Of a stretch of 64,000 nt of DNA, positions 3,464-24,770 are shown piece by piece. The translations under genes and the position numbers were made by a program. The stretch lies in assembly GCA_029268065.1 (NCBI GenBank), contig JAJUHC010000002.1, positions 62,001-126,000 on the forward strand, read 5' to 3'. Under the pieces are notes generated by a model, which saw only the letters and a list, made by a program, of their open reading frames with translations, was not told the origin of the DNA and did no database searches. How positions within the stretch are numbered: the first letter of the stretch is position 1; each line of letters begins with the position of its first letter. The stretch comes from Clostridiales bacterium (GTDB taxonomy: Bacteria; Bacillota; Clostridia; Oscillospirales; Oscillospiraceae).

Positions 3464-4312
3464 ATGAACGATAAAACGAAGAGCTTTTTTGAAACCCTAT
3501 TCAGCCGGAAGCTCGTTATTGTTTCCGCGCTTGTCATACTGTTCTTCCTGCTCTGCGCGGTGGCCTCCCCGGTCTTTGCGACGCACGACCCCGACAAGCA
3601 GAATCTCGCAGAATTTCTTCAGGGCGCCTCCTCCAGCCACTGGCTCGGCACCGACCAGTACGGGCGGGACGTATACAGCCGCATAGTCTACGGCACGAGG
3701 ATAGCCTTCCTCGTCGGCATTTTCTCCGTTATTATGTCCGGCATATTCGGAACGGTTTTAGGTCTTTTGTCCGGTTACTTCGGCGGATGGGTCGACAACG
3801 TCATCATGAGACTGGTTGAAGCTATCATGGCCATCCCCCCGCTCATCCTCGCGCTCGCCCTGGTCGCCATACTCGGGCGCAGCACCACCATGCTCACCGT
3901 CGTGCTTGCGATCTCAAACATTCCGCCCTTTGCCCGGATGATGCGCGGCCAGGTACTGACCGTGCGCGACCTGGACTATGTGTCCGCAAGCAGGATTCGC
4001 GGCAACAGGAGCCTTGTCACAATGCTCAAGCATATTCTTCCCAACTGCCTCTCCCCCATGATAGTCATCATGACTCAGAGCATCGGCAATACCATTCTTT
4101 CCGAGGCCGCGCTAAGCTTCCTCGGGGCCGGAATACTGCCCCCCACGGCTTCCTGGGGCGCCATGGTCAACGACGGGTACAGGTACCTGACCACGAATTC
4201 CCTTTTTGCGCTGGCGCCAGGCTTTGCCATAATCGTTCTAGTGCTGGCCTTCAACATTTTCGGCGACGGACTGCGCGACGCCCTCGACCCGCGTCTGCGC
4301 GGCGCGCTGTGA
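3464..4312 (+). CDS. ABC transporter permease, DppC/OppC type
   Basis: A 282-residue permease starting with the ATG at 3464, which follows AGGAGG at good spacing; the upstream in-frame extension would overlap the previous gene. It has the DppC family pattern: one N-terminal helix, the segment HWLGTDQYGRDVYSRI after the first loop (about residues 60-75), then five membrane helices. The EAA loop reads YVSASRIRGNRS near residue 175. It pairs with the upstream DppB-like permease and the fused ATPase that starts 19 bases downstream. Confidence 0.92.
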   Translation: MNDKTKSFFETLFSRKLVIVSALVILFFLLCAVASPVFATHDPDKQNLAEFLQGASSSHWLGTDQYGRDVYSRIVYGTRIAFLVGIFSVIMSGIFGTVLGLLSGYFGGWVDNVIMRLVEAIMAIPPLILALALVAILGRSTTMLTVVLAISNIPPFARMMRGQVLTVRDLDYVSASRIRGNRSLVTMLKHILPNCLSPMIVIMTQSIGNTILSEAALSFLGAGILPPTASWGAMVNDGYRYLTTNSLFALAPGFAIIVLVLAFNIFGDGLRDALDPRLRGAL

Positions 4313-6341: not shown

Positions 6342-6387
6342 ACCTTTCAAAAAACGCTTTTCCGGCGCCGGTGTACAAAAAACGGCC

Positions 6388-6406
6388 CAACCCGAAAAAC
6401 GGGTTG
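6388..6406 (+). terminator. Weak hairpin after the transporter operon
   Basis: CAACCCG and CGGGTTG form a 7-bp stem with a five-A loop, followed by TTCCCC rather than a true U-run. It may attenuate transcription between the transporter genes and the MmgE/PrpD gene rather than end it. Confidence 0.35.
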
Positions 6407-6448
6407 TTCCCCGTAACGCATTCATTACATCGAAGGAGGACCTTTCAA

Positions 6449-7828
6449 GTGGGACTGTCATATCAGCTTGCCGAATTTGTCTCGAAAACCGAATTTGAGG
6501 ATATACCCGCCTCCGTGATAGAAACACAGAAAAAATCAGTCATGGACGCGATTGCGATAACGCTGGGCGCGGCTACGCTGGGCGACGGCTGCCGCGAAAT
6601 GGTCAAACTCGCCGAGGAGCTGGCATCAGGCGGCAGGCCCGAGGCAACGGTGATAGGCTTCAGAAAAAAGCTTCCAGCCCCCTGGGCCGCCTTCGCCAAC
6701 GGCTCGATGGCTCATTCTCTCGACTTTGGCGACACTCACAGCAGGAGCACGATACATTCAAACTCCTCTTCCTTTCCGGCGGCGCTTGCCGTGGCCGAAA
6801 AGCTCGGAAACGTGGACGGCAAAAGCTTTCTGACCGCTCTCGTGGTTGGAAGCGAGGTGGCCTGTCGCATAGCCATGGGCGCGGACATCAACACGACCTC
6901 TTACGGCTTTTATATTCCAACCATCTATTCCTCGTTCGGCGCCGTCGCCGCGGTATCCAAGCTGCTCGGTCTATCCCCGGAGGAAACGGTAAACGCCTTC
7001 TCCTTCAATCTGTGCCAGGCGACCTGCAGCTCCGAGCTCTTGAACAATTCAGACACCGTTGTGCGCTCCGTGCGCGAAAGCTTCACCTCAAAGTCCGCGG
7101 TTTTGTCCTGTTATATGGCGAAGCGCGGGCTAAAGGGCTTTGCCGAACCTCTGGAGGGAAAAAACGGCTTTTATCACGCATATCTTCGCGGGGAATACAC
7201 CGAGCCGCGCGTGCTTGACGGCCTCGGCAGGGATTTTGAGTGCGAAAAGCTGACCTTCAAAGCCTGGCCGAGCTGCTTCGGCACACATTCCTGCATCGAC
7301 GCGGCTCTGCAGCTTGTGAAGGAGCATAAAATCCGCCCTGAGGAAATTACGCGCATTCATGTCAAGGCGGCGCAGCTCAACCGCATACTGCTCGAGCCGG
7401 AGGAAATAAGAAAGGCGCCCACCGCTTCCATAATAGCGAAGTTCAGCATACCCTTTACCGTTTCCGAAGCAATTATAAACGGCAACGTGACGCTTTCCAG
7501 CTTTTCCCCCGAGAAGTACGCCGACCCGCGAATCCTCGGCCTGACGCATAAGTTTACCCACGAAATATGCGAGGGATGGGGCAGAGGCAGGGAAACATGG
7601 TCCGAAACGACCATTTTTGCGGAGCGGGGAGTTTTCGGCAAGATGGTAACCTCGCCTTACGGCACCCCGGAAAACCCCATGGACCCCGAAGGCATGGCTG
7701 CAAAAATGCGCGCCTGCGCCGCAAGCGCTGTTTATCCCAGAAGCGAGGATGAGCTTGAGTCGCTCGAGCTTGCCGTCAGGAATCTTCAAAAGCTTGAAAA
7801 CATCTCTCAGCTTGCCGAATTGCTTTGA
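6449..7828 (+). CDS. MmgE/PrpD family protein (2-methylcitrate dehydratase / aconitate decarboxylase fold)
   Basis: A 459-residue protein of the MmgE/PrpD superfamily. Its characterised members dehydrate 2-methylcitrate, decarboxylate cis-aconitate or isomerise related acids without a metal cofactor. Family signs are AEFVSKTEFEDIPASVIETQ at the start, the NGSMAHSLDFGDTH segment near residue 85 (carrying the conserved Asp and His), and KAWPSCFGTHSCIDAALQL near residue 270. The GTG at 6449 was chosen because AAGGAGG lies 8 bases upstream; a longer in-frame start at 6371 has no ribosome site. It lies between the ABC transporter and a GRE gene, so it may act on the imported compound. The substrate is unknown. 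Confidence 0.85.
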   Translation: MGLSYQLAEFVSKTEFEDIPASVIETQKKSVMDAIAITLGAATLGDGCREMVKLAEELASGGRPEATVIGFRKKLPAPWAAFANGSMAHSLDFGDTHSRSTIHSNSSSFPAALAVAEKLGNVDGKSFLTALVVGSEVACRIAMGADINTTSYGFYIPTIYSSFGAVAAVSKLLGLSPEETVNAFSFNLCQATCSSELLNNSDTVVRSVRESFTSKSAVLSCYMAKRGLKGFAEPLEGKNGFYHAYLRGEYTEPRVLDGLGRDFECEKLTFKAWPSCFGTHSCIDAALQLVKEHKIRPEEITRIHVKAAQLNRILLEPEEIRKAPTASIIAKFSIPFTVSEAIINGNVTLSSFSPEKYADPRILGLTHKFTHEICEGWGRGRETWSETTIFAERGVFGKMVTSPYGTPENPMDPEGMAAKMRACAASAVYPRSEDELESLELAVRNLQKLENISQLAELL

Positions 7829-11230: not shown

Positions 11231-12883
11231 TCAACCCGAACAATCCATTTGGCGCATAATCTCCGCAAATCGGTTCTTTATCCTGTCAAAGCCCTCGCTC
11301 TCGGTTTTATGGTCCTTCTCCAGACGCTTGAGCAGTCTGATGAGCTCGGCGCTCATTTTCGTGATATCCTCGGAGAATTCCCTGCAAAGCGGACGGAGGC
11401 TTTCCTGCATTTTATAGCGGTAGTTGTAGAGAATATTGTTTTTATTGAGCTCAAGGTCGTCCATCGCCTTCTTGAGCGCACGCTCGAAAATCTTCTCGTT
11501 GGCCTTCGCTTTGGGCAGAAGATGCGTCAATCTGTCGGCGTCGAGGTAAATGCTTCCGCCTCGGCTCATCCGGAAGAAATAGTCGTCCCTGGCCGAAACG
11601 GCAAACTCTTTGGAGCTTACCGGATACTCTATCCCGAAGTACTCCCTTACCATGTCGGAAAGATACATCGCCGTATCGGCGGCTTTTTTGTTCAGAGAGC
11701 CCACTATGTCCGAATAACCCTCCTCAAGCATCAAAAGCCCCGCGTCATTAATTCTGCCGACCTCTTCACGGAGAAGGGTCTCGAGCTCGGCAAGCATCTT
11801 CTGCTCGAACTGCCTGGACGGCAGCGCTTTCAGTGTCTCATAACGGCTCTGAGCGGAGGCTCTCACGCCTGCAAGCAATTCCGGAAGCATGGCGTTTATG
11901 CGCTCCTCTATCCGTCCCACCAGCCTTTCGGCCTGTTTCCTCGCAAGCACCTGCACTTCGTCGGAGAGAAGCTCCAGGGAAGCCTGCTTTTTCATGATCT
12001 CGCCGACCCTGCTTTCAAGCTCCTCAGCCGGTATGGACGCCGCCTTCAGATAGAGATGCATCTTGGATTTCGCCTGAGAAATTATGTTGTCCAGCTTGAA
12101 GTCTATCGAGGAGGAAAGCAGCTCCTCGTAGGAGGCGCGTATATCCTCGCTAATCCTTTTGACGATTTCGCTTATCCCTTCACCGGTCTTGGCGCTTACA
12201 GGATAAAGAACCGCTTCAAAGCCCACCGATTCGGACAGCAGCCTGCCGCAATAGGATATGAATTCAGCCAGATTCTCGCGGCTGATCGTGTCGATCTTAT
12301 TCACCGCAAAATAGAACTTTGAAGCGTGTTCCCGGGTTTTCAGCAGGAATTCCCGCTCGGTCTCGCTTACGGGGCTGTCAACCGACAGGAGAAAAAGCAC
12401 GGCGTCGCTTTTTTCGATATAGCTGTGCGACGTTTCGGTATTGTGCTGGTGAACGGAGCCTACGCCGGGCGTATCAACCAGCACGACGCCCTTCCCGAAC
12501 AGTTCCCGCTCGGTCCAAAGCTTCACCGCCGCAACTTTCTTATGGTTGTCGCGGTTTTGCTGTTCGCTGACATACTCCGGCAGCTCCTCCCTCGGTATCT
12601 CCCTCTCGGGCCCGTCAGTAAAGCTGACAACCGCCCTGAAGCTCCCGCCGTGGCGTATTTCCGTAACGACGGTAGTTAGGGGGATTATTCCCACTGGAAG
12701 AATATCCTCTCCGAGCATCGCGTTAATAAGAGAGGATTTTCCCCTTTTGAACTGTCCTATAACCGATACGATCAGCTCCTTTTCAGAATACCTGCGGCTA
12801 AGTTCAAAGGCGCCCTGCACCTGCTCTTCAAGGATTCCTGTTTCGCTCATCAGCTTTATTATTGATTCAAGTTTCGCCTTCAA
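11231..12883 (-). CDS. Dynamin-like GTPase
   Basis: A 550-residue bacterial dynamin-family protein. The GTPase domain has a P-loop GQFKRGKSS at about residues 43-51, switch-I Thr in IPLTTVVTEI, DTPGVGS as G3 and NKID as G4. Long helical segments follow, with no obvious membrane-spanning helix, and a coiled-coil tail rich in Glu and Lys. The start is a TTG whose bases overlap the TGA stop of the upstream MutS-like gene (TTGA), so translation is coupled. Bacterial dynamins usually remodel membranes; association with two MutS-like ATPases is not part of any pathway I can name. A single dynamin gene is seen here rather than the common tandem pair. Confidence 0.85.
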   Translation of the reverse strand: MKAKLESIIKLMSETGILEEQVQGAFELSRRYSEKELIVSVIGQFKRGKSSLINAMLGEDILPVGIIPLTTVVTEIRHGGSFRAVVSFTDGPEREIPREELPEYVSEQQNRDNHKKVAAVKLWTERELFGKGVVLVDTPGVGSVHQHNTETSHSYIEKSDAVLFLLSVDSPVSETEREFLLKTREHASKFYFAVNKIDTISRENLAEFISYCGRLLSESVGFEAVLYPVSAKTGEGISEIVKRISEDIRASYEELLSSSIDFKLDNIISQAKSKMHLYLKAASIPAEELESRVGEIMKKQASLELLSDEVQVLARKQAERLVGRIEERINAMLPELLAGVRASAQSRYETLKALPSRQFEQKMLAELETLLREEVGRINDAGLLMLEEGYSDIVGSLNKKAADTAMYLSDMVREYFGIEYPVSSKEFAVSARDDYFFRMSRGGSIYLDADRLTHLLPKAKANEKIFERALKKAMDDLELNKNNILYNYRYKMQESLRPLCREFSEDITKMSAELIRLLKRLEKDHKTESEGFDRIKNRFAEIMRQMDCSG

Positions 12884-14367
12884 GCCAATTCCCCGCCTTT
12901 AACAAATATCTTTCTGTACAAATCCTCTCCGAAGGCCGTATGCAGCGGTTCCCCGGGCGTGACTCTGAAGCTTCGCTCGCCGTTTTCCAGACGCTCCGCC
13001 CTCAAATACTGGGTTTTTTCGTTTTTGAGGAACGCGGCGGCATATGTGTAGAGGTGAGTTACCGAGAAAACCTCGATTCCGTTTTCGATCAGGGCCTGCG
13101 TGATTTGGCGGCATATCTCCGAACCCTCGCGTTCGTTTGTCGCGGCAAAGGATTCGTTGAACAGTATGAGGGAGCCGCTTTGCAGCCGATCCGCCAGCGC
13201 GCTCATTCTGGAAAGCTCCTCATCCAGCTTCCCGCTGCTCATCGCCTTGTCCTCTTCCTTCTTGAAGTGGGTGAAAACCCCGTTCCTTACTGGCGCCGAA
13301 AAGCTCTCGGCGCCAACAAACATCCCCGCTTGAGCCATGAGCTGTGCCTGCCCCACGCTGCGCAGGAACGTGGATTTGCCGCCCTGATTGGCTCCGGTGA
13401 CTATATAAAGCCTCTTCGCGGAAGCAGAAAGCTCGTTTCCCACTACGGCCTCGTTCTTCGTAAGGGCGAGGCTGACATCATACAGCGCCTTCCACGACCG
13501 CTCTTCATCTTTGGCGGGCAGCAGCTCCGGAATGCATATCGGCATGCCCAAGGCGCTCAGCGAGTCCCTGAGGTTTATGCAGCCGACGAAGAAGGCAAGC
13601 TCGTCTCTAAGCATATTGAAAAAGCTTTCTATATGCTCGGCGGCCTGCGCCAGAGCGTTCGTAACGTCGTTTATCGCACGGTCGCGCCGGTTTCCCATGT
13701 CCTTTGCGCCCGCGTCGTCACGCGGCGCCAGAGAATACGAGGGCGCGAACGCCCAGTTTCGCCAAAAATGCGCGGTCTCTTTCCTGCGGAGAACGTAGTC
13801 AACGCCCTGCAAATAGCAGCCCAGCCTTGCGCTGACAAGCAGGCCTTCCCCATCCTTCAGCTCTTCCAGCAGCTCGCCCGCGCTCTCAAGATAGCTGTTG
13901 CTCAGCTCGCGCTGAAGCATGGTCAGAAGTTCAACAAAGCCCTCGGATTTGAAGCCGCCCAGGCTTTCATCCGCCACCGCACGGAACTCCGTCAGCATTT
14001 CCAGGTAAATCTTCAAAAGCCCCACGGCGCTGGAAAACGTGCTCGCAAGATATTGCGAGGGGTAAAGCCAATACCAGGATCCGCTTTTTTTCTTGTTTGT
14101 TTCGCAGGTTATTTCGTAGAGTCTCCTGACAGGCCCGGGATTTTCAAGGGCGTCCATCAGCACCGTCTGGCGGTAGCTTATATCCTCCGGTGAAGGCAGC
14201 GGGCGGAAGAGGGCCGCGTTGCACGCGGCTTTGATCGTATCGTCGCCGCGCGACATACAGACTATTATCCGCTCAAGCTCAAGGTCCGCCGTGAGGACCG
14301 CTTTTCCGAAGCAGGGCTCGGCCTTTATGTCAAAATCCCTGTCTCTGAACATCAGGTTTGCCTTCAT
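12880..14367 (-). CDS. MutS-like ATPase B (MutS domains III and V only)
   Basis: A 495-residue protein with a MutS core/lever region and a C-terminal ABC-type ATPase domain. Walker A reads TGANQGGKST (about residues 324-333, canonical GPNMGGKST). The Walker B region reads LILFNESFAATN, so the usual Asp-Glu is Asn-Glu. The mismatch-reading N-terminal domain with its Phe-x-Glu motif is absent, so it is not a classical mismatch repair protein. Its ATG overlaps the stop of the upstream MutS-like gene (ATGA), and it in turn overlaps the dynamin start. It probably forms a heterodimer with MutS-like A, since MutS ATPase sites are built from two subunits. Confidence 0.85.
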   Translation of the reverse strand: MKANLMFRDRDFDIKAEPCFGKAVLTADLELERIIVCMSRGDDTIKAACNAALFRPLPSPEDISYRQTVLMDALENPGPVRRLYEITCETNKKKSGSWYWLYPSQYLASTFSSAVGLLKIYLEMLTEFRAVADESLGGFKSEGFVELLTMLQRELSNSYLESAGELLEELKDGEGLLVSARLGCYLQGVDYVLRRKETAHFWRNWAFAPSYSLAPRDDAGAKDMGNRRDRAINDVTNALAQAAEHIESFFNMLRDELAFFVGCINLRDSLSALGMPICIPELLPAKDEERSWKALYDVSLALTKNEAVVGNELSASAKRLYIVTGANQGGKSTFLRSVGQAQLMAQAGMFVGAESFSAPVRNGVFTHFKKEEDKAMSSGKLDEELSRMSALADRLQSGSLILFNESFAATNEREGSEICRQITQALIENGIEVFSVTHLYTYAAAFLKNEKTQYLRAERLENGERSFRVTPGEPLHTAFGEDLYRKIFVKGGELA

Positions 14368-15908
14368 GCTTTTAGCCTCCTGCTGAGCTGTTCATATGTA
14401 AGGCCATGCCTGCCCGCGATATGCATGGCATACGCGAGGCCGTCCGGCGGCTTGCGTATGATTTTATAGGTCCGCTGCGAGGGGTCCTCCTCCTTTACAG
14501 TGCTCATCATGCTGACGGTCTCCTTGCCGCGGTTGGCCAGTTCGTCCAGAAAAGTCACCACAACCGCCGGAGCCCCCAGCTCCGCAAAGGCGTCCATCAT
14601 GCGTTCACCGAGGGTCAGCGCGTCGGAAAGCGTCGTTGATGAGAATATCTCGTTCACAACGATGACGCTTCTTTCGGTCGCGTTATCAAGCAGCTCGCGC
14701 AGGCGGACAAGGTCGTCCTGCAGCTTGCCGTTAAGGGTGGACAGGTCCTCCTCCCTGCCGAAATGAGTGAGAATATTATCGAAAAGGTACAGAAGCGATT
14801 TGCTTCCGGGCACGCAGAGTCCAAGCGACATCAGCCAGTGCAGCTGCCCGAAGGCGCGCGCAAAGGTTGTCTTGCCGCCCTGGTTGGGACCCGTGACCAC
14901 GATAATCCGTTCCGGTGCGTCAAGCACGAAATCGTTTGTAACCACTACGCCCTGCGTCTTCAGGGCGAGCGCGAGATCGAAGCCCTGATAATTGTAAATA
15001 CGCTCCGCATTTTCGCTCAGCCCGGGATAATTGAACCGAAGTCCCTTGCCCCGAAGCGAACGTATATAATCGAGCCACGCGATGTAAAACTGCACATCCG
15101 CGGCGAAACGAGTTATCGTGGCGTCCTGGAAGCGCAGGCGGCTTTCGCAGAATTTTTCGAGGTCCGCAAAAATATCCTTATGATACTTTGCCACCATATT
15201 CAGGACTGCCGCTTCCACATGGTCTGCCACAGGCTCGTTCGAGAGCTTTTTATGGTAGTCCTTTACGCCGTCCCGGCGAAACTTCTCGAACATTTCAATG
15301 ACCTGCACCGAAAGGTCCGCCTGTCCCTCGTATTTGCGGACGCGAATCGTACCGTTGTTAATCAGCATGTTATAGCTAACCGTCGCAAGCCTTTCACGGA
15401 GCCGGCTTATATCCTCTTCAAGCTTTACGAAAAAATCGGATCGCCTGTATTCGTTGAGATACCCGGAGAAAGCGCGCAGCCCCGAAGACTTAAGCTCCAA
15501 ACCGTTCAGCCCCTCCGAGAGGGCGGAAACCTCTTTGCAGTAAAGCTCCGCACAGTAGAGCATCCTGCCCCGGGTAAGATAATTATTATCATATGACTTG
15601 TCCGAACCCAGCAGCCTGTACAGTGTCTCCAGCTTCACGCCCAGATCGAAAACGGTTTCCGAAAAATGCGAGACGAGGGCAAACAGATCTTCGTTTTCCA
15701 GCTCCCGCATCACGTCCTGCCTGTATCTTATGACCACGGGATCGCGCAGTGACGTGCAGAAAAGCCCGTCAAGGTTAAACCGCTTTTTTCTCTCGAGGAG
15801 TGGCATGAATATCTGGTCAAGGTTCAGATCCCTGAAGCAGTCCGGCACATCCTTTGCCAAAGGCCGTTCCTGCCTCTCACGCTCAGGAAACAAAATACTG
15901 TAAAACAC
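14364..15908 (-). CDS. MutS-like ATPase A (MutS domains III and V only)
   Basis: A 514-residue paralog of the following gene. Walker A is TGPNQGGKTT at about residues 339-348. The Walker B region is VIVVNEIFSSTT, again with Asn instead of the first acidic residue. No mismatch-recognition domain is visible; the N terminus is helical and leads into a MutS lever-like segment. The start is GTG at 15908 with AAGGAG 7 bases upstream. It is the first gene of the coupled operon with MutS-like B, dynamin and HAD. Upstream is a structured leader resembling a fluoride riboswitch. MutS-family genes are, to my knowledge, among the gene classes reported downstream of crcB-motif RNAs. Confidence 0.85.
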   Translation of the reverse strand: MFYSILFPERERQERPLAKDVPDCFRDLNLDQIFMPLLERKKRFNLDGLFCTSLRDPVVIRYRQDVMRELENEDLFALVSHFSETVFDLGVKLETLYRLLGSDKSYDNNYLTRGRMLYCAELYCKEVSALSEGLNGLELKSSGLRAFSGYLNEYRRSDFFVKLEEDISRLRERLATVSYNMLINNGTIRVRKYEGQADLSVQVIEMFEKFRRDGVKDYHKKLSNEPVADHVEAAVLNMVAKYHKDIFADLEKFCESRLRFQDATITRFAADVQFYIAWLDYIRSLRGKGLRFNYPGLSENAERIYNYQGFDLALALKTQGVVVTNDFVLDAPERIIVVTGPNQGGKTTFARAFGQLHWLMSLGLCVPGSKSLLYLFDNILTHFGREEDLSTLNGKLQDDLVRLRELLDNATERSVIVVNEIFSSTTLSDALTLGERMMDAFAELGAPAVVVTFLDELANRGKETVSMMSTVKEEDPSQRTYKIIRKPPDGLAYAMHIAGRHGLTYEQLSRRLKA

Positions 15909-15921
15909 AAAATATCTCCTT

Positions 15922-16018
15922 CCTCAGAGACAAAACAGCTGATGTCTCTGCTATTTTAGCAGAAGTCATCAGCTGATTGCGGTTTCGGCTTTCGCCGGGG
16001 GAGAACTTCTTTCCCCGG
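15922..16018 (-). promoter_or_regulatory. Possible divergent fluoride (crcB-type) riboswitch leader of the MutS operon
   Basis: On the minus strand the leader holds AAGAAGTTC inside a GC-rich stem, then AAACCGC, a short spacer and GCTGATGACTTCT. These are the recognisable blocks of the crcB aptamer. The pseudoknot strands AGAAGT and ACTTCT differ from the common GGAGT/ACTCC but remain complementary. Two features are atypical: the loop lacks the exact GATG start, and a short hairpin (CGGC-GAAA-GCCG) is inserted before AAACC. AGCTGATGACTTCTGCT can instead pair with AGCAGAGACATCAGCT (one bulge) ahead of GTTTTGT, a plausible terminator that excludes the aptamer. The remaining gap to 16257 shows a TATAAT at 16067-16072 (minus) and otherwise only GC-rich sequence. 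Confidence 0.45.
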
Positions 16019-16257
16019 TATTCAGTCTGAAAAAGCGCAAGCCAAAGTAGGCCTGGCGCGGCGGAATTATATCGGCTGTTTGTGCCGCCCGCCGCGGCGC
16101 TTTCACATCCGGCGGCCACTATCACGGGAGCCGGGGGCGGCGGAAGAAACAGGGAAGGACAAAACAGCGTGTCGGTCCGTCTTGCTTACAACTTCAGGCG
16201 GCCGGGCGTGAGCCTGAGGCCGGCAAGCCGTACTCCCCCGATTCGGCTGATTGCCGC

Positions 16258-17259
16258 CTATTTATTCAGAGCCTCCGCGACGGCGACCGCGACGGCGACG
16301 GTGGCGCCGACCATAGGGTTGTTGCCCATGCCGAGGAAGCCCATCATTTCAACATGGGCCGGAACGGAACTCGAGCCCGCAAACTGCGCGTCCGAATGCA
16401 TTCTGCCCATCGTGTCCGTCATGCCGTAGGAAGCGGGGCCTGCAGCCATATTGTCCGGGTGCAGGGTACGCCCGGTACCGCCGCCGGAAGCGACAGAAAA
16501 GTACTTTTTCCCTTGCTCCACGCACTCCTTTTTATACGTCCCCGCGACAGGGTGCTGGAATCTTGTCGGATTTGTGGAATTGCCGGTAATGGACACGTCC
16601 ACTCCCTCAAGGTGCATGATTGCAACGCCCTCGCGCACGTCGTCCGCACCGTAGCAGCGCACCTGCGCGCGCTCCCCCTTGGAATAGGCGATTTCGCGTA
16701 CGACCTTGATTTCACCGGTATAATAATCAAACTGAGTCTGCACATAGGTGAAGCCATTGATGCGCGAAATTATCTGCGCCGCGTCCTTTCCCAGTCCGTT
16801 GAGGATAACGCGGAGCGGCACCCTTCTGGCCTTATTCGCGTTTTTTACGATGCCTATCGCGCCCTCGGCCGCGGCGAAGCTTTCATGTCCGGCTAAAAAC
16901 GCGAAGCATTTCGTCTCGTCGCGCAGCAGCATGGCCGCAAGATTTCCGTGTCCCAGCCCGACTTTGCGGTCTTCCGCAACACTGCCGGGGATGCAGAAGC
17001 TTTGAAGACCTATGCCTATGGCCTCCGCCGCGTCCGCCGCCGATTTTACGTTCCTCTTTATGGCGACGGCGGCCCCGGCAACGTAAGCCCATCCCGCGTT
17101 TTCGAATGCGATGGGCTGGACGGACTTTACGATATCCGCAGGGGAAACGCCGGCTTTATCGCAAATTGCCTTTGCCTCGTCAAGCGATGAAATCCCGTAT
17201 TCGGCCAACACGCCGTTTATCTTATCTATGCGGCGCTCATAGCTTTCAAACGTTGCCAT
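16258..17259 (-). CDS. GGGtGRT protein
   Basis: A 333-residue protein recognised by the diagnostic segment SGGGTGRTLHPDNMA at about residue 255. It has a glycine- and alanine-rich C terminus (GMGNNPMVGATVAVAVAVAE) and an early region AFENAGWAYVAGAAVAIKR. GGGtGRT proteins occur mainly in anaerobic Clostridia and are typically encoded next to a NifU-like scaffold, as here, where the gap is 11 bases. Their biochemical role is unknown; a link to iron-sulfur or redox metabolism is inferred only from this pairing. It is the second gene behind the fluoride riboswitch at 18081-18153, which would place it under fluoride control. Confidence 0.9.
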   Translation of the reverse strand: MATFESYERRIDKINGVLAEYGISSLDEAKAICDKAGVSPADIVKSVQPIAFENAGWAYVAGAAVAIKRNVKSAADAAEAIGIGLQSFCIPGSVAEDRKVGLGHGNLAAMLLRDETKCFAFLAGHESFAAAEGAIGIVKNANKARRVPLRVILNGLGKDAAQIISRINGFTYVQTQFDYYTGEIKVVREIAYSKGERAQVRCYGADDVREGVAIMHLEGVDVSITGNSTNPTRFQHPVAGTYKKECVEQGKKYFSVASGGGTGRTLHPDNMAAGPASYGMTDTMGRMHSDAQFAGSSSVPAHVEMMGFLGMGNNPMVGATVAVAVAVAEALNK

Positions 17260-17270
17260 GTGTCTCCTCC

Positions 17271-17963
17271 TTATTCGTGACGCGGGTCAATGTATTTTGC
17301 GGCCTCGGAGAAACGCCCGTATGTGCCCTTAGCCTTTTCAAGCGCCGCGTTCGCGTCCTCGCCCTTCTTTATGAAGTCCATCATCTTGCCAAGGCTTATA
17401 AATTCGTAACCAATTATCTCGTCGTTTTCGTCGAGTGCAACGCGGCTGACATAGCCCTCGGTCAGCTCGAGATAGCGGGCGCCCTTGGCCCTGGTGCCGA
17501 ACATGGTCCCTATCTGGCTCCTCATGCCCTTTCCCAAATCCTCAAGGCTCGCTCCGATAGGCAGTCCGCCCTCGGAAAAGGCGGTCTGGCTGCGTCCGTA
17601 CACTATCTGCAAAAACAGCTCGCGCATCGCAACGTTGATGGCATCGCAGACAAGGTCCGTGTTCAAGGCCTCCAGAATGGTCTTTCCAGGCAGGATTTCG
17701 GAAGCCATGGCCGCCGAATGCGTCATGCCGGAGCAGCCCAGGGTTTCCACCAGCGCCTCCTCGATAACGCCGTCCTTCACGTTCAGCGTCAGCTTGCAGG
17801 CGCCCTGCTGCGGCGCGCACCAGCCGACACCGTGAGTCAGGCCGGAGATGTCCTTGATTTCCTTTGCCTGCACCCATTTGCCCTCCTCGGGAATAGGCGC
17901 GGGGCCGTGGTATGCGCCCTTGGCGACGGCGCACATATGCTCCACTTCGCTCGAATACAGCAT
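17271..17963 (-). CDS. NifU-like iron-sulfur cluster assembly scaffold protein
   Basis: A 230-residue protein with an IscU/NifU-N-like fold. Candidate cluster-ligand cysteines are in GVGWCAPQQGACKL and ETLGCSGMTHSAAMASE, the latter matching the Cys-containing loop of SufU/IscU-type scaffolds. It is longer than IscU (about 130 residues) and carries a C-terminal extension ending in YIDPRHE. The ATG at 17963 was chosen because AGGAGG lies 7 bases upstream; the in-frame upstream extension runs through the riboswitch. It is the first gene of the two-gene NifU-GGGtGRT operon. The scaffold role is inferred from family; which apo-protein it serves is not evident. Confidence 0.85.
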   Translation of the reverse strand: MLYSSEVEHMCAVAKGAYHGPAPIPEEGKWVQAKEIKDISGLTHGVGWCAPQQGACKLTLNVKDGVIEEALVETLGCSGMTHSAAMASEILPGKTILEALNTDLVCDAINVAMRELFLQIVYGRSQTAFSEGGLPIGASLEDLGKGMRSQIGTMFGTRAKGARYLELTEGYVSRVALDENDEIIGYEFISLGKMMDFIKKGEDANAALEKAKGTYGRFSEAAKYIDPRHE

Positions 17964-18080
17964 TTGCTTTCCTCCTGTACTTATATATTGCAATTGAAGC
18001 GATTGAATCGTTTGTCCGGAAGCGCCCCGATTATTGTCATGCGAAATATCCACGTCTTCCAACCCGGACATAAACATGGC

Positions 18081-18153
18081 CCCCGCAAATAACCATCGGG
18101 TTATTCGTAGGAGTCATCAGCTTACAGCGGTTAAGGCGAACTCCATCACCGTG
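18081..18153 (-). ncRNA. Fluoride riboswitch (crcB motif) of the NifU-GGGtGRT operon
   Basis: The minus-strand RNA reads GGTGATGGAGTTCGCC, then TTAACCGCTGTAAGCTGATG and ACTCCTACG. This reproduces the aptamer closely: a stem GGTG/CGCC with loop ATGGAGTT, a second stem GCT/AGC, and a pseudoknot GGAGT with ACTCC. Immediately downstream CCTACGAATAACC can pair with GGTTATTTGCGGGG (4-base loop), using the aptamer's 3' strand, so ligand binding and this hairpin are mutually exclusive. A promoter ends 5 bases upstream of the aptamer. Between here and the NifU start (17964-18080) there is only leader sequence; 18188-18363 shows nothing else recognisable. Confidence 0.85.
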
Positions 18154-18157
18154 TCTG

Positions 18158-18187
18158 ATTATAGCACTAAACAGGCTTTGTTTTCAA
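18158..18187 (-). promoter_or_regulatory. Promoter of the fluoride riboswitch transcript
   Basis: Minus-strand TTGAAA (18187-18182) and TATAAT (18163-18158) are 18 bases apart, with an extended -10 TGC. Transcription would begin a few bases before the aptamer, as expected for a cis-acting riboswitch. Confidence 0.75.
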
Positions 18188-18446: not shown

Positions 18447-19103
18447 TCACGCCATAGGCTTAAGATTCGGAGAAACGATAAGCGTTGCCTCCGTCGCGCC
18501 CTGTACCTGTTCGGGTGTAAATTCGGGGTTGATTTCGCTCAGCACGAGTCCTGCGTCGGTTACTTCCATCACGCCCATTTCAGTAATTATCAAATCGACG
18601 CAGTTTATTGCCGTGAGCGGCAACCGGCAGTTTTTCAGTATTTTGGGTTCCCCCTTCTGCGTATGCTCCATGGTGACTATCACCCTTTTCGCCCCGACTA
18701 CCAAATCCATCGCGCCGCCCATTCCCGGAAGCTTTTTGCCGGGAATTATCCAGTTCGAAATGCTGCCTTTTTCGTCGACTTCAAGCGCACCGAGCACCGT
18801 TACGTCTATATGTCCGCCTCTGATCATGCCGAAGGATGTACAGGAATCGAAATAACAGCCGCCCGGAGCGACGGTCACGGGAGTAGCGCCCGCGTCGACC
18901 TTATAAACGGGATCGTAGCTTTCCTTTGTGCAGGGCACGACGCCCATCAGTCCGTTTTCAGCCTGAATCGTGACCTCTACGCCTTCCGGCAGATAATTAG
19001 GAATCATGGTGGGCATGCCTATTCCGAGATTTACGATATCTCCGTCCTTCAATTCCTTTGCCGCGCGGGCAATAATATAGCTTTTAATATTTTCCTTATC
19101 CAT
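18447..19103 (-). CDS. Acetoacetate-type CoA-transferase, beta subunit (AtoA/ScoB family)
   Basis: A 218-residue small subunit of a class I CoA-transferase. The catalytic Glu is residue 49 in IQAENGLMG, and the GIGMPTMIPNYLP segment that precedes it is typical. The ATG at 19103 was preferred because AGGA lies in front of it; it overlaps the alpha-subunit gene by 8 bases, so the two subunits are co-translated. In this operon the enzyme would move CoA from an acyl-CoA to the free acetoacetate released by the BKACE-type lyase, feeding the thiolase. Use of another short 3-oxo or 3-hydroxy acid is possible. Confidence 0.9.
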   Translation of the reverse strand: MDKENIKSYIIARAAKELKDGDIVNLGIGMPTMIPNYLPEGVEVTIQAENGLMGVVPCTKESYDPVYKVDAGATPVTVAPGGCYFDSCTSFGMIRGGHIDVTVLGALEVDEKGSISNWIIPGKKLPGMGGAMDLVVGAKRVIVTMEHTQKGEPKILKNCRLPLTAINCVDLIITEMGVMEVTDAGLVLSEINPEFTPEQVQGATEATLIVSPNLKPMA

Positions 19104-19791
19104 TCGCTTTTCCTCCGTCCACGACGTAGTCCACAAAAATGCCGGAGGTCATCACGTTCTCGGGTTCAATTTCGCCGGCTTCGACCACGTTATCGGCTTC
19201 AACGATAACAGTTTTCGCAGCGGTCGCCATAGCCCAGCCGAAATTCCGCGTCGAGCCTTTGTACCACACGTTGCCAGCCTTATCCACCTTGTAGCCGCTG
19301 ATCAAAGCGAAGTCCGCCTTCAGAGGCTTCATCAAAAGATATTTTCTGCCGTCGATTTCCTGTACGGAGTGGACGTAGTCCCTGTAATCCTCGACGATGG
19401 TTCCGACGCCGGTCGGAGTGAGAACGCCGCCGAGCCCCGCTCCTCCCGCTCTGATCATTTCGGCAAACGAGCCCTGCGGGATCAGATCCACCCGCATCGA
19501 GCCTTCGTTCATCTGCAATCCGACCTCGGGGTTCAGACCTACATGGGTCGCCACCATATGTTTTACCTGGCGGTTATGTATCAGCTTCGCAACGCCGTAG
19601 TATTCCTCGCCCATCGGTCCGCCGGGCTGAGCGCCGTCGTTGCAGATAAGCTTGAAATTCCCTTTGCCGCTCTTGGAGAGGGCGTCTATTACTTTATGCG
19701 GATTCCCGCAGCCCATAAAGCCCCCGACCATTATCGAAGCCCCGTCAGGTATCATCTCCACTGCTTCCGCTAATGTTATAAATTTTGGCAC
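19096..19791 (-). CDS. Acetoacetate-type CoA-transferase, alpha subunit (AtoD/ScoA family)
   Basis: A 231-residue alpha subunit of a class I CoA-transferase. It has the oxyanion-hole loop [12 protein letters not shown] near residue 22, the [18 protein letters not shown] segment near residue 105 and VLTPTGVGT just after. It lies 17 bases after the thiolase gene and overlaps the beta-subunit gene. Order, spacing and context fit a single operon in which thiolase and CoA-transferase finish the conversion of phloroglucinol carbon to acetyl-CoA. Confidence 0.9.
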
Positions 19792-19808
19792 GGCTTACCT
19801 CCTGCTTA

Positions 19809-20993
19809 CTATTCGCATTTTTCGAAAACGGTCGCCACGCCCATTCCGCCGCCTACGCAGAGCGTAGCCAGGCCGCGTTTGGCTTCCGGCCTTCTGCGCA
19901 TTTCATGGAGGAGAGTTACTATTATGCGGGCGCCGGAGGCTCCGACAGGATGTCCCATCGCGATAGCTCCGCCGTTCACGTTTACCTTCTTCATATCGAA
20001 CCCCAGCTCCTGAGCCACCGCAAGCGCCTGCGCCGCAAAGGCTTCGTTCGCTTCCACGAGATCGATGTCTCCCATCGTAAGTCCCGCTTTCTTCAAAGCG
20101 CTTTTTGACGCCGGGACAGGTCCTATGCCCATGATCTGCGGATCGACTCCGCCCTGCCCCCACCCGATCAGCTTTGCCATAGGCTTTAGGCCATGCTTCC
20201 TTACGGCTTCGGCAGAGGCCAGCAGTATCGCGGCGGCTCCGTCATTTATGCCGGAGGCGTTGCCCGCCGTCACCTTTCCGTCGGGTTTGAACGCGGGTTT
20301 AAGCCTGGAGAGCGCTTCCGCGCTGGTATCGCTCCTCGGATATTCGTCCGTGTCAAACAAGATAATGTCTTTTTTTACTTTTACCGGCACGGGGACGATC
20401 TCGGCGGCAAACTTAGACGCTGTTTTGGCAGCCGCAGCTTTTTCCTGCGAGGAGAGGGCGAAAGCGTCCAGGGCCTCGCGGCTCAGCCCCCACTTCTCAA
20501 TGATATTCTCCGCGGTGACGCCCATGTGATAGTTATTGAACGCATCGGTAAGCGCGTCGTTCACCATAACGTCCACGAGCTTGCCCTCACCCATTCTGGC
20601 TCCCCACCGCGCGGCGGGGACGGCATAGGGCGCGGCCGACATATTCTCCGTGCCTCCCGCAACGACAATGTCGGCGTCTCCCGCGAGTATTGCCCGCGAC
20701 GCTTCGATAACGGACTTCATGCCGGAGCCGCACACCATGTCTATGGTGCAGGCGGGAACCTCAACGGGAATCCCCGCCTTGACCGCCGCCTGACGGGCGA
20801 CGTTCTGCCCTAGCCCCGCCGTAAGCACGCATCCGAACATGACCTCGTCAACCAGCTCAGGCGCAACCCCGCCCCTCGCGAGGACTTCCCTGATCACCAC
20901 CGCGCCCAGTTCGGGAGCGGGGCTGTCTTTGAGGCTGCCTCCGAAGCTGCCGATTGCCGTCCTGCAGCAATTTACTATATACACTTCCTTCAT
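19809..20993 (-). CDS. Thiolase (acetyl-CoA C-acetyltransferase)
   Basis: A 394-residue thiolase of normal length. The nucleophilic Cys is in [11 protein letters not shown] (about residue 88), the conserved NEAFAAQAL segment precedes the active-site His in [17 protein letters not shown] (about residue 350), and the second Cys is in [12 protein letters not shown]. In this context it would cleave acetoacetyl-CoA into two acetyl-CoA, although the reaction is reversible. A 130-base gap with a hairpin at 21082-21110 separates it from the upstream lyase gene, so its level may differ from the upper pathway. Confidence 0.92.
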
Positions 20994-21081
20994 CCGGAAT
21001 CCTCCAAACAGATTATTGATTTATGAGCAAACGCCCGCGTATTTTGCCTCCGTTCACCCGGCGAAATTCAAAACCGCATAA

Positions 21082-21110
21082 GAAAATGACATCCCGAAGA
21101 TGCCATTTTC
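21082..21110 (-). terminator. Hairpin inside the phloroglucinol operon
   Basis: GAAAATGaCATC and GATGcCATTTTC form a 12-bp stem with one mismatch and a 5-base loop. The minus strand continues TTATGCGGTTTTG. It may reduce transcription of the thiolase and CoA-transferase genes relative to the genes before it. Confidence 0.45.
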
Positions 21111-21123
21111 ATTAACGGCAGGC

Positions 21124-21978
21124 TCAGGTTCTCGGGCTTAGCCGCAGTATTTCCCTTGCTTCGTCCGGGGTCGCGGCGTCGCAGCCGAATTCCTCTATAA
21201 TTCGCTTTGCGCGGGCGACGAACTGCACGTTGCTGTCGGCCAGGACGCCCTTCCTGTAATAAATATTGTCTTCCATTCCGACGCGGACATGTCCGCCCAT
21301 GGCTACGGTCGCGTATAATATCTCCATGGCGCTCGCGCCGACTCCGAACGCCGACCATGTTGAGCCCGGGGCCACCTCTTCCATCGTGTCTCTCATGAAG
21401 ACCAGGTTCTTTGTAGAAGCCCCTATGCCCCCCGGTACGCCCATGCAGAACTGGAAATGAAGCGGAGCCTTTATAAAGCCCTTTTTCAGCAGATATCCCG
21501 CGTTGTATATCATGCCGGGGTCGAACACCTCGATTTCAGGCTTCACTCCCTTTTCCTGCATCAGAAGGCCCAGCTTTTCAAGGAACTTCGGGTTGTTTTC
21601 AAAAACTGTCGTGTTCTGCCAGTTCATCGTGCCGCAGTCGTAAGAAGCCATCTCGGGTACAAGCTCGTAGAAGGGCCTTATCCTGTCCTCCTCCAGCAGG
21701 TTCACGCCGCCCGAGGTGGTCAGGTTTATAACTATGTCGCAGTCCTTTCTGGATTTCAGAAGCCTCACGGTTTCTTCAAACTTCTCGAATACCATCGCCG
21801 CCTTACCCTTGTCGTCGCGGCAATGGATATGCGCTATCGCGGCTCCCGCCTTCCAGCAGTTATATATCTCCTCCGCGATTTCAGCCGGCTCTATGGGCAC
21901 ATTAGGCGTATTTTCCTTCGTAGGCCACGCGCCGGTTGTCGCCACCGTAATTATCCTTTTGTTTTTAAGCTCTGTCAT
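21124..21978 (-). CDS. BKACE-family lyase, probable triacetate acetoacetate-lyase
   Basis: A 284-residue beta-keto acid cleavage enzyme, of the family of 3-keto-5-aminohexanoate cleavage protein. Zinc ligands are in IAHIHCRDD (about residue 45), and the conserved HVRVGMEDN segment lies near residue 225. Family members condense a beta-keto acid with acetyl-CoA, giving acetoacetate and a new acyl-CoA. With the neighbouring genes the best substrate is triacetate (3,5-dioxohexanoate), yielding acetoacetate and acetoacetyl-CoA. The ATG at 21978 was chosen because GAGGA is 9 bases upstream; an in-frame ATG at 21987 abuts that site. Alternatives are dehydrocarnitine or 3-keto-5-aminohexanoate cleavage, but genes for those pathways are absent here. 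Confidence 0.85.
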   Translation of the reverse strand: MTELKNKRIITVATTGAWPTKENTPNVPIEPAEIAEEIYNCWKAGAAIAHIHCRDDKGKAAMVFEKFEETVRLLKSRKDCDIVINLTTSGGVNLLEEDRIRPFYELVPEMASYDCGTMNWQNTTVFENNPKFLEKLGLLMQEKGVKPEIEVFDPGMIYNAGYLLKKGFIKAPLHFQFCMGVPGGIGASTKNLVFMRDTMEEVAPGSTWSAFGVGASAMEILYATVAMGGHVRVGMEDNIYYRKGVLADSNVQFVARAKRIIEEFGCDAATPDEAREILRLSPRT

Positions 21979-22036
21979 TGTAATCATTCCTCGGTTTCAA
22001 AAGTATTGGCATTGCCGTTTTAGGGCGCAGCCCGTC

Positions 22037-22975
22037 TCAAATGCATCCGCCGTAAGCGTAGGTCCTGTCCGGAACGTCGTTCAGATCGTCCTCGTCTATT
22101 TCGGCGACGCAGCGGACCATGGAGCCGTCCCCCATGTACCAGCGGAGGGGGAAGCAGTAGAACCTGAAGCGCTTGCCCGTGACCTTGTCAAGATCTCCGC
22201 CGAGGTTTTCAACGCCCACTATCCCATGCCCCAGCATCTGCTTGTGGCAGGGCTCCCATGTACCCCAGCAGCCGATCGCTTCCAGGTCTCCGAACTTTTT
22301 GTCGTATGCTTCCTTGCCGTGGACCTTTATGTAAACTTCCTTGTCAAATTCGGCGTACGCCTCTTCGCCGAACTGCTCGATGTACTCCTCGCATATCGTT
22401 TTTCCGGAGGCCCCGATCAGATTCATGCGGGTCATGCCGTTGTTCCCCATTGCGGTGTGCAGCGGGTGGTCAAGCGCCTGGCTGTCCATCGCCACGCACT
22501 TAACCTTATGCTTTACAAACCACCTTCCCGCCTCTACGCCGGTGCCGCTGGCATAGTGATAATATTCCTTGCTGTCGTCAAACTTGCGGTGCATACCCGT
22601 ATTAAGGCACAGGACCATGCCTTCAAGCTCGCTCGGCTTCACGCCGATCCTTTCGCAGGCCTCCTCGAGATGCCTGGGAAGTATGAGTCCCCAGCGCTCG
22701 ATTTCTATCGGGAGGCAGACGGCGTCGCCGGTATACGCGTCAACGGGCATTTCATGCGTATACCGCGCCCTTTTGCCGTCAAACTCGATTTCCATGACGT
22801 GGCGCGGCGCGTCGGCGTGGGTTCCGGTGTGCATAGTGCAGCTTATCTTCTGCGTCAGAACGCCGCCCTTGGCCATTGTATGGGCATTATCGATCACCGG
22901 CTTGTCAAAATAGGGCCAGCGGGGAATTTCCGCGCTGAAGGGGTGCGTCAGGTCAACGAATACTTTCTTTCCCAT
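22037..22975 (-). CDS. Cyclase-family metallohydrolase, probable dihydrophloroglucinol cyclohydrolase
   Basis: A 312-residue protein of the cyclase / kynurenine-formamidase-like superfamily. The metal-binding motif HTGTHADAPRH is at about residues 49-59, and VDLTHPFS near the N terminus is also typical. Members hydrolyse C-N or C-C bonds with Mn or Zn. In the characterised anaerobic phloroglucinol pathway such an enzyme opens the ring of dihydrophloroglucinol to 3-hydroxy-5-oxohexanoate. Its position between the SDR/dehydrogenase genes and the BKACE gene supports that role. It is longer than simple formamidases (about 210-260 residues). Sequence alone does not exclude another cyclic diketone as substrate. 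Confidence 0.8.
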   Translation of the reverse strand: MGKKVFVDLTHPFSAEIPRWPYFDKPVIDNAHTMAKGGVLTQKISCTMHTGTHADAPRHVMEIEFDGKRARYTHEMPVDAYTGDAVCLPIEIERWGLILPRHLEEACERIGVKPSELEGMVLCLNTGMHRKFDDSKEYYHYASGTGVEAGRWFVKHKVKCVAMDSQALDHPLHTAMGNNGMTRMNLIGASGKTICEEYIEQFGEEAYAEFDKEVYIKVHGKEAYDKKFGDLEAIGCWGTWEPCHKQMLGHGIVGVENLGGDLDKVTGKRFRFYCFPLRWYMGDGSMVRCVAEIDEDDLNDVPDRTYAYGGCI

Positions 22976-23039
22976 TGTAATTTCCTCCGTTATAATTGAC
23001 TTTTCTGCATTTTTTGACTGAAACAGCCATGCGTAAAGC

Positions 23040-23975
23040 TCATTTCCTGTCTTTTGCGGCGTAATCGATGAGGTATTCCTTCAGGCCGTCGCCGGACGCC
23101 TTCATCTGTTCAGGAGTCCATTCCTGCCAGCCTTTTCCGCTTTTAAATCCTAGCTCGCCGCGGTCGAGCATTTCCTGAAGCAGGCGCGAGGGCTCGTGAT
23201 TGTCCGCAAGATGCCCGAGAATATACTTATGTATATTGTTCGTAAGCTCGATCCCCACAAGATCGGAATTTTCCATCGGCCCCATTACCGGCCATCGCAG
23301 TCCAGGACCGAACTTGCAGGCATCATCCACCGTCGCGGGGTCGGCTATGCCGTTTTCCACCATGTAAAAGGCCTCGCGCCACAAGGCGTGCTGGAGACGG
23401 TTCGCCACAAAGCCGGGAACGTCCTTTTTGCAGTATATGGGCTTTTTCCCGACGCGCCTGAGAAGCACCATCGTCGCCTGCATCACTTCCTCGCTGGTAA
23501 AATCCGACTTCACGACCTCCACCAGCGGAATCAGATGACCGGGGTTCCAGAAGTGCGCGCCGACGACCCTTTCCCTGCGCCTGCACTTTTGAGAAATCTC
23601 GGTCGGGCTCATCACCGACGTGTTGGTCGCAAGTATGCAGTCATCGCGGCAAAAGTTTTCGATGTGCGCGAACAAATCCTGCTTTGTCTCCATGACCTCC
23701 GGGTAGCACTCGATGACGAAATCAGCATCCGTATAGGCCGAGGCGTCGTCCGTAACAAAGCTTATGCGGCTTAGAATCGCCTCTTTGTCGGCTTGGGTGC
23801 CCGCGCCCCGCGCGATCATGATGTCAAGGTTATCGGCTATCGGCCTGTATCTGTCGTCCTTGAGCGCGCGGGTTTTCAAAACGACGTTCAAATCCGGATC
23901 TGAAGCAAAAACCTGGGCGATGGAATTGCCCATCATTCCCGCCCCGACAATCACCACATTTTTTATAGGCTTCAT
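23040..23975 (-). CDS. 3-hydroxyacyl dehydrogenase-type enzyme, probable 3-hydroxy-5-oxohexanoate dehydrogenase
   Basis: A 311-residue NAD-dependent dehydrogenase of the 3-hydroxyacyl-CoA / L-carnitine dehydrogenase family. The Rossmann motif is VVIVGAGMMGNSIAQVFA at residues 7-24, the catalytic His lies in GAHFWNPGHLIPLVEVV near residue 143, and the C-terminal helical domain contains DVPGFVANRLQHALWREA. In this operon it would oxidise 3-hydroxy-5-oxohexanoate to triacetate, the substrate of the BKACE-type lyase. L-carnitine dehydrogenase is the main alternative, as that enzyme also works with a BKACE partner, but the cyclase and SDR genes argue for the phloroglucinol route. Its stop is 64 bases before the cyclase gene. 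Confidence 0.82.
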   Translation of the reverse strand: MKPIKNVVIVGAGMMGNSIAQVFASDPDLNVVLKTRALKDDRYRPIADNLDIMIARGAGTQADKEAILSRISFVTDDASAYTDADFVIECYPEVMETKQDLFAHIENFCRDDCILATNTSVMSPTEISQKCRRRERVVGAHFWNPGHLIPLVEVVKSDFTSEEVMQATMVLLRRVGKKPIYCKKDVPGFVANRLQHALWREAFYMVENGIADPATVDDACKFGPGLRWPVMGPMENSDLVGIELTNNIHKYILGHLADNHEPSRLLQEMLDRGELGFKSGKGWQEWTPEQMKASGDGLKEYLIDYAAKDRK

Positions 23976-23978
23976 ACG

Positions 23979-24770
23979 TCAGTTGCTCCAGTAGCCGCCG
24001 GTCGCGTCGTAATTGCCGCCGGTCAGAAAGTCCGAGGCCGGGGAGGCCAGGAAGGTTGCCAGTCCCACGAAATCCTGCACTTCACCGAGCCGCCCGATGG
24101 GAAGGCGCTTAAGGAAATTCTGATAGACGGCCGATTCCGGGTCGAACATCCACTCCGTAAGCTCCGAACGGAACACCGTGGGGTTAATCGTGTTGACGTT
24201 GATGTGATACGGCGCGAGATCTATTGCCATGGACTGAATCATCAGATCGCAGCCGCCCTTTGAGGCGCAGTAGCCCGTGTACCCCTTCATGCCCATTTTG
24301 CTGCGCGCCGAGGACGTAACGACTATCTTTCCGCCTTTGCCCTGGGCGACCATCCGCTCCGCCGCAGCCTTGCATACTATGTAGACGCTCTTCAGGTCCG
24401 CGTCCATGATGGCCTGCCATTCCTCGACGCTCTGCTCAAGAACGCCCTTCGGATTGTTGTAGCCGTGGCAGACGGCCAGAATATTCAGTTCGCCATACGT
24501 CTCGGCCACAAACTCAATTGCCTTTTTCACCTCGGCCACAACGCCGGCGTCGGCTGCAATGATCGCGCAGTCGATGCCTTCGGCCTTAAACTCGGCTTCC
24601 AGCTCCCTGAGCTTCGACGCGTTGCGCGCAGTCATCACGACTCTTGCGCCCTGATAGCCATACGCTTTCGCGACCGCGCCGCCCAAGGCGCCGGTGGCGC
24701 CGGTTACAAGAGCGACCTTGCCGCGCACTCCGAACATACCTTGGACAAAATCTTTTTCAACCTTTATCAT
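23979..24770 (-). CDS. Short-chain dehydrogenase/reductase, probable phloroglucinol reductase
   Basis: A 263-residue classical SDR. The cofactor motif is TGATGALGG (about residues 24-32), and the catalytic residues are Ser in TSSARSKMG and Tyr/Lys in [10 protein letters not shown]. Phloroglucinol reductase of anaerobes is an NADPH-dependent SDR that makes dihydrophloroglucinol, and this gene is next to the other enzymes of that route. The stop is 3 bases before the following dehydrogenase gene. The basic MTARN after the second strand would fit NADPH, but this is weak evidence. Without that context only 'SDR oxidoreductase' could be claimed. Confidence 0.8.

Follow-up and report, generated by a model that had tools for sequence, protein, structure and literature searches.

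Gene organization of the locus

The window analysed here is a stretch of 64,000 nucleotides from the genome of a Clostridiales bacterium (GCA_029268065.1, contig JAJUHC010000002.1, positions 62,001 to 126,000). In this window, a promoter and a fluoride riboswitch aptamer precede a NifU-like gene and a gene of the GGGtGRT family. The features are as follows.

18158 to 18187, minus strand: sigma-70-type promoter TTGAAA-18-TATAAT, 11 of 12 consensus matches
18101 to 18159, minus strand: fluoride riboswitch aptamer (RF01734), short form, 59.0 bits by Rfam cmscan
18144-18140 (GGAGU) and 18114-18110 (ACUCC), minus strand: pseudoknot strands of this aptamer
18080 to 18113, minus strand: putative expression-platform hairpin with the pseudoknot CUCC paired to GGGGG, no U-tract (fold, z -1.54)
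17971 to 17976, minus strand: Shine-Dalgarno-like AGGAGG of the NifU-like gene
17271 to 17963, minus strand: distant NifU/IscU-like protein, 230 aa (PF01592, 20.7 bits, cut-off 22)
16258 to 17259, minus strand: GGGtGRT protein (PF14057), 333 aa (profile 645.6 bits, cut-off 27)
15953 to 16024, minus strand: second fluoride riboswitch aptamer (RF01734), long form, 35.9 bits against a cut-off of 34
15936 to 15975, minus strand: hairpin that resembles a terminator and overlaps the second aptamer at its 3' end, with the tail UUUUGUCU (-23.2 kcal/mol, z -3.36)
14364 to 15908, minus strand: MutS-like ATPase, 514 aa, MutS domain V only
12880 to 14367, minus strand: second MutS-like ATPase, 495 aa, MutS domain V only

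An earlier note on this DNA had placed NifU-like and GGGtGRT genes downstream of the aptamer, and both are found there, at 17963-17271 and 17259-16258. A neighbouring operon on the same strand (18447-24770, minus) encodes a CoA-transferase pair, BKACE and Cyclase proteins. Its further open reading frames look like thiolase, hydroxyacyl-CoA dehydrogenase and SDR by inspection.

The NifU-like and GGGtGRT proteins

IscU/NifU scaffolds carry three conserved cluster-ligand cysteines. The NifU-like protein of the window is weakly similar to these scaffolds over residues 50-109 and has conserved cysteines; Cys 49, 56, 77 and 106 are invariant in 32 aligned sequences. It differs from them in its 230 amino acids with a long extra C-terminal part, and it scores below the Pfam and NCBIfam cut-offs for IscU/NifU (PF01592, 20.7 against 22 bits; TIGR03419, 26.2 against 187.9; TIGR01999, 22.2 against 192.4). 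The predicted structure is poor (pTM 0.49), too poor for placing the four invariant cysteines.

The second protein is a full-length member of the GGGtGRT family PF14057. The mean column identity is 87% over 42 sequences, which were chosen among the 80 top-scoring matches to this protein and span Bacillota, Bacteroidota, Spirochaetota, Pseudomonadota, and Deferribacterota. The window protein is set apart by its surroundings, whereas most other members in our genome draws have no adjoining fluoride switch. Its AlphaFold2 model is fair (pLDDT 80.7, pTM 0.82), with residues 259-283, including the GGGTGRT motif, below 50. Foldseek found no PDB match to this model at E <= 0.001, and a search of the PDB with the sequence returned only two diaminopimelate decarboxylase chains at E 0.49. 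The best VIA-align Z of 8.6 is near the 7-8 typical of models without a clear match, and no fold or enzyme class was assigned from it.

A plasmid search with the 5.3 kb unit returned 36 records, but in no record did a single place cover 80% of the query. A record from Bacteroides finegoldii carries an annotated GGGtGRT protein and an iron-sulfur cluster assembly scaffold protein.

The fluoride riboswitch in front of the NifU-like gene

The earlier note had described a crcB-type aptamer with stems and a pseudoknot just behind a good promoter, and had proposed a covariance-model search with the Rfam fluoride model. The description holds, and the search is significant. The aptamer (18159-18101, minus) matches RF01734 at 59.0 bits (E 8e-14, Rfam cmscan) against a gathering cut-off of 34 bits, and model positions 1-64 are covered entirely. 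In the covariance-model alignment, the P1 stem GGUG/CGCC is intact, and the GGAGU/ACUCC pseudoknot is complete with five of five Watson-Crick pairs. Only four of the 106 RF01734 matches listed for 391 genomes of the class score higher. Across 16 aptamers, 80 of 80 pseudoknot cells are paired and both sides are changed at one of the five pairs; the covariation score is reached by 8 of 500 shuffles, and the count of such pairs by 157 of 500.

The aptamer lies in a 5' leader directly behind the promoter (18187-18158). The scan gave two promoter-like sites against 1.5 in shuffles, a count that is not significant alone, and the placement of this one is right. Judged by sequence and predicted fold, it is nearly certain that the element at 18159-18101 belongs to the fluoride riboswitch class. 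Its short form resembles the crcB switch of the same genome, whereas the kin loci have the long form. That crcB switch, the third fluoride switch of the genome, precedes two crcB genes.

A second riboswitch and the MutS-like pair

A second aptamer, absent from the earlier note, lies about 230 nt beyond the GGGtGRT gene and before the two MutS-like genes. Its pseudoknot AGAAGU/ACUUCU is paired. The hairpin at 15936-15975 that overlaps its 3' end was not picked by the consensus terminator scan.

MutS proteins of mismatch repair have a mismatch-binding domain, MutS_I. This domain was not found in either MutS-like protein, where MutS_V is the sole MutS domain up to E 1. The pair is weakly similar to KamC, the lysine 5,6-aminomutase reactivase (33.9 and 63.7 bits, cut-off 300), and scores 72.6 and 58.1 bits against MutS2. 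In Weinberg et al. 2010 (PMC2864571), mutS is reported as a target of the fluoride switch (crcB RNA). The pair resembles those genes in being headed by a switch, both in the window and at the related locus L102, but differs from them in having domain V only and in its weak likeness to KamC. What is called 'mutS' in fluoride regulons may thus serve to reactivate an enzyme, as a pair, and not act in mismatch repair.

At L102, in genome G160, a cobalamin riboswitch (5246-5069, minus, 117 bits) and an ATP:corrinoid adenosyltransferase gene stand directly behind the MutS-like pair, which could fit a link of this pair to B12 enzymes. At another locus, L017, the R1 model described below has two plus-strand fluoride matches, at 1061-1131 and 3632-3703 (63.7 and 21.2 bits). 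A crcB pair follows the first, and a MutSb-like gene fragment follows the second.

Recurrence at other GGGtGRT loci

The earlier note had proposed a survey of other GGGtGRT operons for the same RNA. At least 586 GGGtGRT loci were available from named genomes, and we examined the best 80 of them, using a model (R1) built from 16 aptamers, the window's included, and then Rfam. Among these, the same RNA is found directly before NifU and over the Rfam cut-off at L025 (45.7 bits), L063 (44.2 bits), and L071 (41.2 bits); most of the operons are without it. L102, the locus of G160 in the class draw, also has it in this place (38.5 bits). The switch at L101 is weak, with 25.7 bits under the cut-off of 34 and its pseudoknot out of register. 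L081 is doubtful as a fluoride switch, with 20.8 bits by R1, no Rfam match at E 0.01, and no pseudoknot of at least four pairs. The elements at L101 (90-160) and L081 (4180-4252) both keep the core AACCGC and GCUGAUGA, have lost the canonical pseudoknot, and share a UCGUU loop. These variant aptamers might reflect decay or a changed ligand.

L102 belongs to another family of the class, and its order of switch, NifU, GGGtGRT, switch, and MutS-like pair repeats the double unit of the window. The identity to the window is 90% for NifU, 90% for GGGtGRT, and 59 and 65% for the MutS-like pair. The second switch of L102 scores 33.2 bits, just below the cut-off of 34, and a C-terminal relic of CrcB (PF02537, 34.6 bits) lies between GGGtGRT and this switch. 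In Anaerotignum neopropionicum (L063), the order is switch, NifU, GGGtGRT, Usp, and Na_H_Exchanger. At L025, the switch, NifU, and GGGtGRT are followed by a second switch and Na_H_Exchanger. The family draw has 17 other loci with a fluoride switch, and 9 of them carry a gene related to the antiporters of L063 and L025. No switch was found at the close kin loci L028, L069, and L027. L069 is a switchless sister of the window in the tree of these loci, and degraded fragments of a Na+/H+ antiporter (6102-6480) directly follow its GGGtGRT gene.

The searches of the L025, L063, and L071 genomes gave no fluoride switch outside this locus. CrcB was not found in these three genomes, and G160 showed just the relic; there is one crcB gene in the genome of L101 and two in that of the window (G000). 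The search for CLC genes gave none for L025, G160, L101, and G000, but two for the L063 genome and one for the L071 genome. The assemblies behind L025, L071, and L101 are metagenomic or from uncultured organisms, so that such an absence is not proof.

Frequency and origin

Co-location of a switch with GGGtGRT is rare. It was compared by eye from listed positions, with stricter filters for the large draws; the window's genome was counted in each draw, and the rates refer to the matches listed. In the class draw of 391 genomes, a switch was found in 86 and GGGtGRT in 191; among the matches listed, the two share a place only in G000 and G160 (2/191 GGGtGRT genomes). In the order draw (225 genomes, 50 and 144), they do so in G000 and in G563, whose coordinates identify it as the L025 genome (2/144). 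In the family draw (120 genomes, 17 and 31), only G000 has both at one place (1/31). For G413, G370, G132, and G640, whose GGGtGRT positions were not listed, tblastn found no NifU or GGGtGRT around the switch; antiporters lie near those of G413 and G370. In G286, which has two GGGtGRT matches of unlisted position and two switch sites, neither gene was found at the one site examined. Because most of the examined GGGtGRT operons are switchless, the switch cannot be the general control of the pair.

With chosen round values of 120 switches for the class, a span of 300 nt, and 2.5 Mb per genome, chance would place about 0.001 switches in the 300 nt ahead of NifU across 73 loci; 4 were counted, one of them the weak L101. 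These 73 of the 80 loci are those where the NifU match is complete and unbroken and is preceded by 130 nt or more, so that L033, L042, L074, L082, L083, L084, and L098 do not enter the count. Applied to the draws, the calculation yields 0.0035 expected against one case (G160) for the class, and 0.0026 against one (G563) for the order.

A tree of NifU and GGGtGRT with 75 rows places the loci that carry a switch in three separate parts. The window, L102, and L025 form one clade with the switchless L027, L028, and L069. L063 stands alone, and L071 and L101 (and L081) are in another clade that also holds switchless rows. Repeated gain of the switch and a single gain with losses and transfers fit this tree equally. 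Since the window has the short form and its kin the long form, the switch may have been exchanged at least once.

Probable control of the operon

The aptamer, its pseudoknot, and its position behind the promoter are accompanied by recurrence of the arrangement beside known fluoride-regulon genes. The proposal of the earlier note, a fluoride riboswitch controlling the NifU-GGGtGRT operon, is well supported and extends to other lineages. The element is likely to switch the operon on in response to fluoride entering the cell. Together with Mg2+, fluoride would lock the GGAGU/ACUCC pseudoknot. The locked ACUCC strand would then be kept from pairing with the downstream GGGGG strand, and the transcript would continue through NifU and GGGtGRT.

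We infer fluoride binding by the window RNA, and the ON direction from the switch class and, by analogy, from the hairpins of orthologous leaders. This class is described as a transcription switch that is ON with fluoride (PMC2864571, PMC13273304). In L102, L063, L025, L071, and L101, a leader hairpin takes the 3' part of the aptamer (a stretch like GCUGAUGACUUC), and the tail behind it is U-rich to a varying degree; z is -4.1 to -7.3 for hand-picked pieces starting at or just before the shared GCUGAUGA stretch. Competition of the hairpin with the aptamer is clear in L102, L063, L071, and L101. Bound fluoride would prevent this overlapping hairpin in the orthologous leaders, as in a transcription switch that is ON with fluoride.

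Another explanation is that the switch belongs to the antiporter, crcB, or MutS genes of a fluoride regulon, and that NifU and GGGtGRT were inserted behind it with no role in fluoride stress. Fluoride genes or relics do lie directly downstream in L063, L102, and L025, the antiporter next to the pair in L069 is degraded, and the switch is missing from most examined GGGtGRT operons. However, the switch is followed first by NifU in all of the window, L102, L025, L063, L071, and L101, and the downstream genes own a separate switch in the window, L102, and L025. In the DNA examined around L071 and L101, tblastn found no relative of the antiporter, USP, or CrcB. Furthermore, the likeness of the window's short form to its own crcB switch, against the long form of the kin loci, suggests that the control of NifU was renewed. 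We consider such an insertion unlikely.

The leader of the window itself raises the question of whether an intact aptamer sits on a broken platform, leaving the operon constitutive. The earlier note had proposed a hairpin that consumes the 3' strand of the aptamer. It is present (18113-18080, CUCCU-A-CGAAUAACC-CGAU-GGUUAUUUG-C-GGGGG, -15.4 kcal/mol), but weaker than implied. It is modestly above shuffles (z -1.54, with 21 of 200 shuffles equally good), is followed by CCAUGUUUAUGUCC instead of a U-tract, and was not picked up when the window was scanned for terminator-like sites. It may act as a weak terminator, in another way, or not at all. The distance of 137 nt from the aptamer to the start codon is longer than in the other switch-bearing leaders. 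On the other hand, the CUCC/GGGGG pairing and the arm UUUGCGGGGG match the crcB leader of the same genome, where the U-tract missing here is present. The high rank of the aptamer among the class-draw matches listed would also be unlikely had selection ended. Loss of control is improbable.

A translational switch from an upstream start, with GGGGG as a ribosome site 8 nt before ATG 18071 that is sequestered by CUCCU and NifU extended by 36-38 amino acids, fits in spacing, complementarity, and a frame open from this ATG to NifU (open frames upstream of NifU also occur in L025 and L071, there through the aptamer itself), but it is very improbable since GC3 is 0.42 in the extension against 0.76 in NifU, and AGGAGG precedes the start codon at 17963.

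Possible role in fluoride stress

The preferred reading is a fluoride riboswitch in front of NifU and GGGtGRT that is ordinary in class and unusual and recurrent in target. It shares with RF01734 the aptamer, the pseudoknot, the place in a 5' leader, and the expected ON logic. The targets named in the consulted part of PMC11139923 are exporters, Na+/H+ antiporters, pyrophosphatase, enolase, formate hydrogen lyase, and haloacid dehalogenases, and NifU-GGGtGRT is unlike these. A link between GGGtGRT and fluoride was not found in the literature searched, though the gene tables of Baker et al. 2012 (Science) might list NifU.

Expression studies connect the pair to iron. GGGtGRT-NifU of Bacteroides thetaiotaomicron (BT0173-74) falls 11- to 12.8-fold in iron-depleted medium (PMC10434189), and GGGtGRT of Clostridium pasteurianum rises 7.1-fold with iron in the early phase (PMC5395762). 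The pair thus behaves like an iron-dependent system. In anaerobic E. coli, suf and iron-uptake genes are raised by NaF (PMC10100675). Since the pair falls under iron depletion (PMC10434189), reading fluoride as iron starvation would predict the opposite sign, and the pair is not a simple iron-starvation gene.

These responses fit the hypothesis that fluoride disturbs iron or iron-sulfur metabolism and the switch calls up the pair for iron-sulfur repair; the earlier note had suggested a role in fluoride damage, for example to iron-sulfur enzymes. The operon might supply an activity that depends on iron, probably an iron-sulfur one, which is needed once iron is tied up or metalloenzymes are inhibited by fluoride, a step less firm than the control itself. 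The link to fluoride stress gains support from the neighbours, namely the crcB relic, the Na+/H+ antiporter, the universal stress protein, and the second switches. A true role of NifU-GGGtGRT in fluoride stress is nevertheless a tentative proposal, one that we hold below even chance. With the same reserve, we suggest that in some bacteria an iron-dependent NifU-GGGtGRT pair may have been put under fluoride control more than once and may carry them through fluoride stress.

GGGtGRT is a very conserved family of unknown function. Since the ligand of the riboswitch is known, a defined inducer is at hand for a direct test of its role. If the proposal is true, the pair would, for example, rebuild iron-sulfur capacity or replace a fluoride-inhibited enzyme. 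It would be a main part of the response to fluoride in genomes such as those of L025 and G160, where intact CrcB and CLC were not found. An iron-linked pair would thereby join the fluoride regulon of exporters, antiporters, and phosphoryl-transfer enzymes, as far as the consulted sources describe it, and this would be the first functional clue for GGGtGRT.
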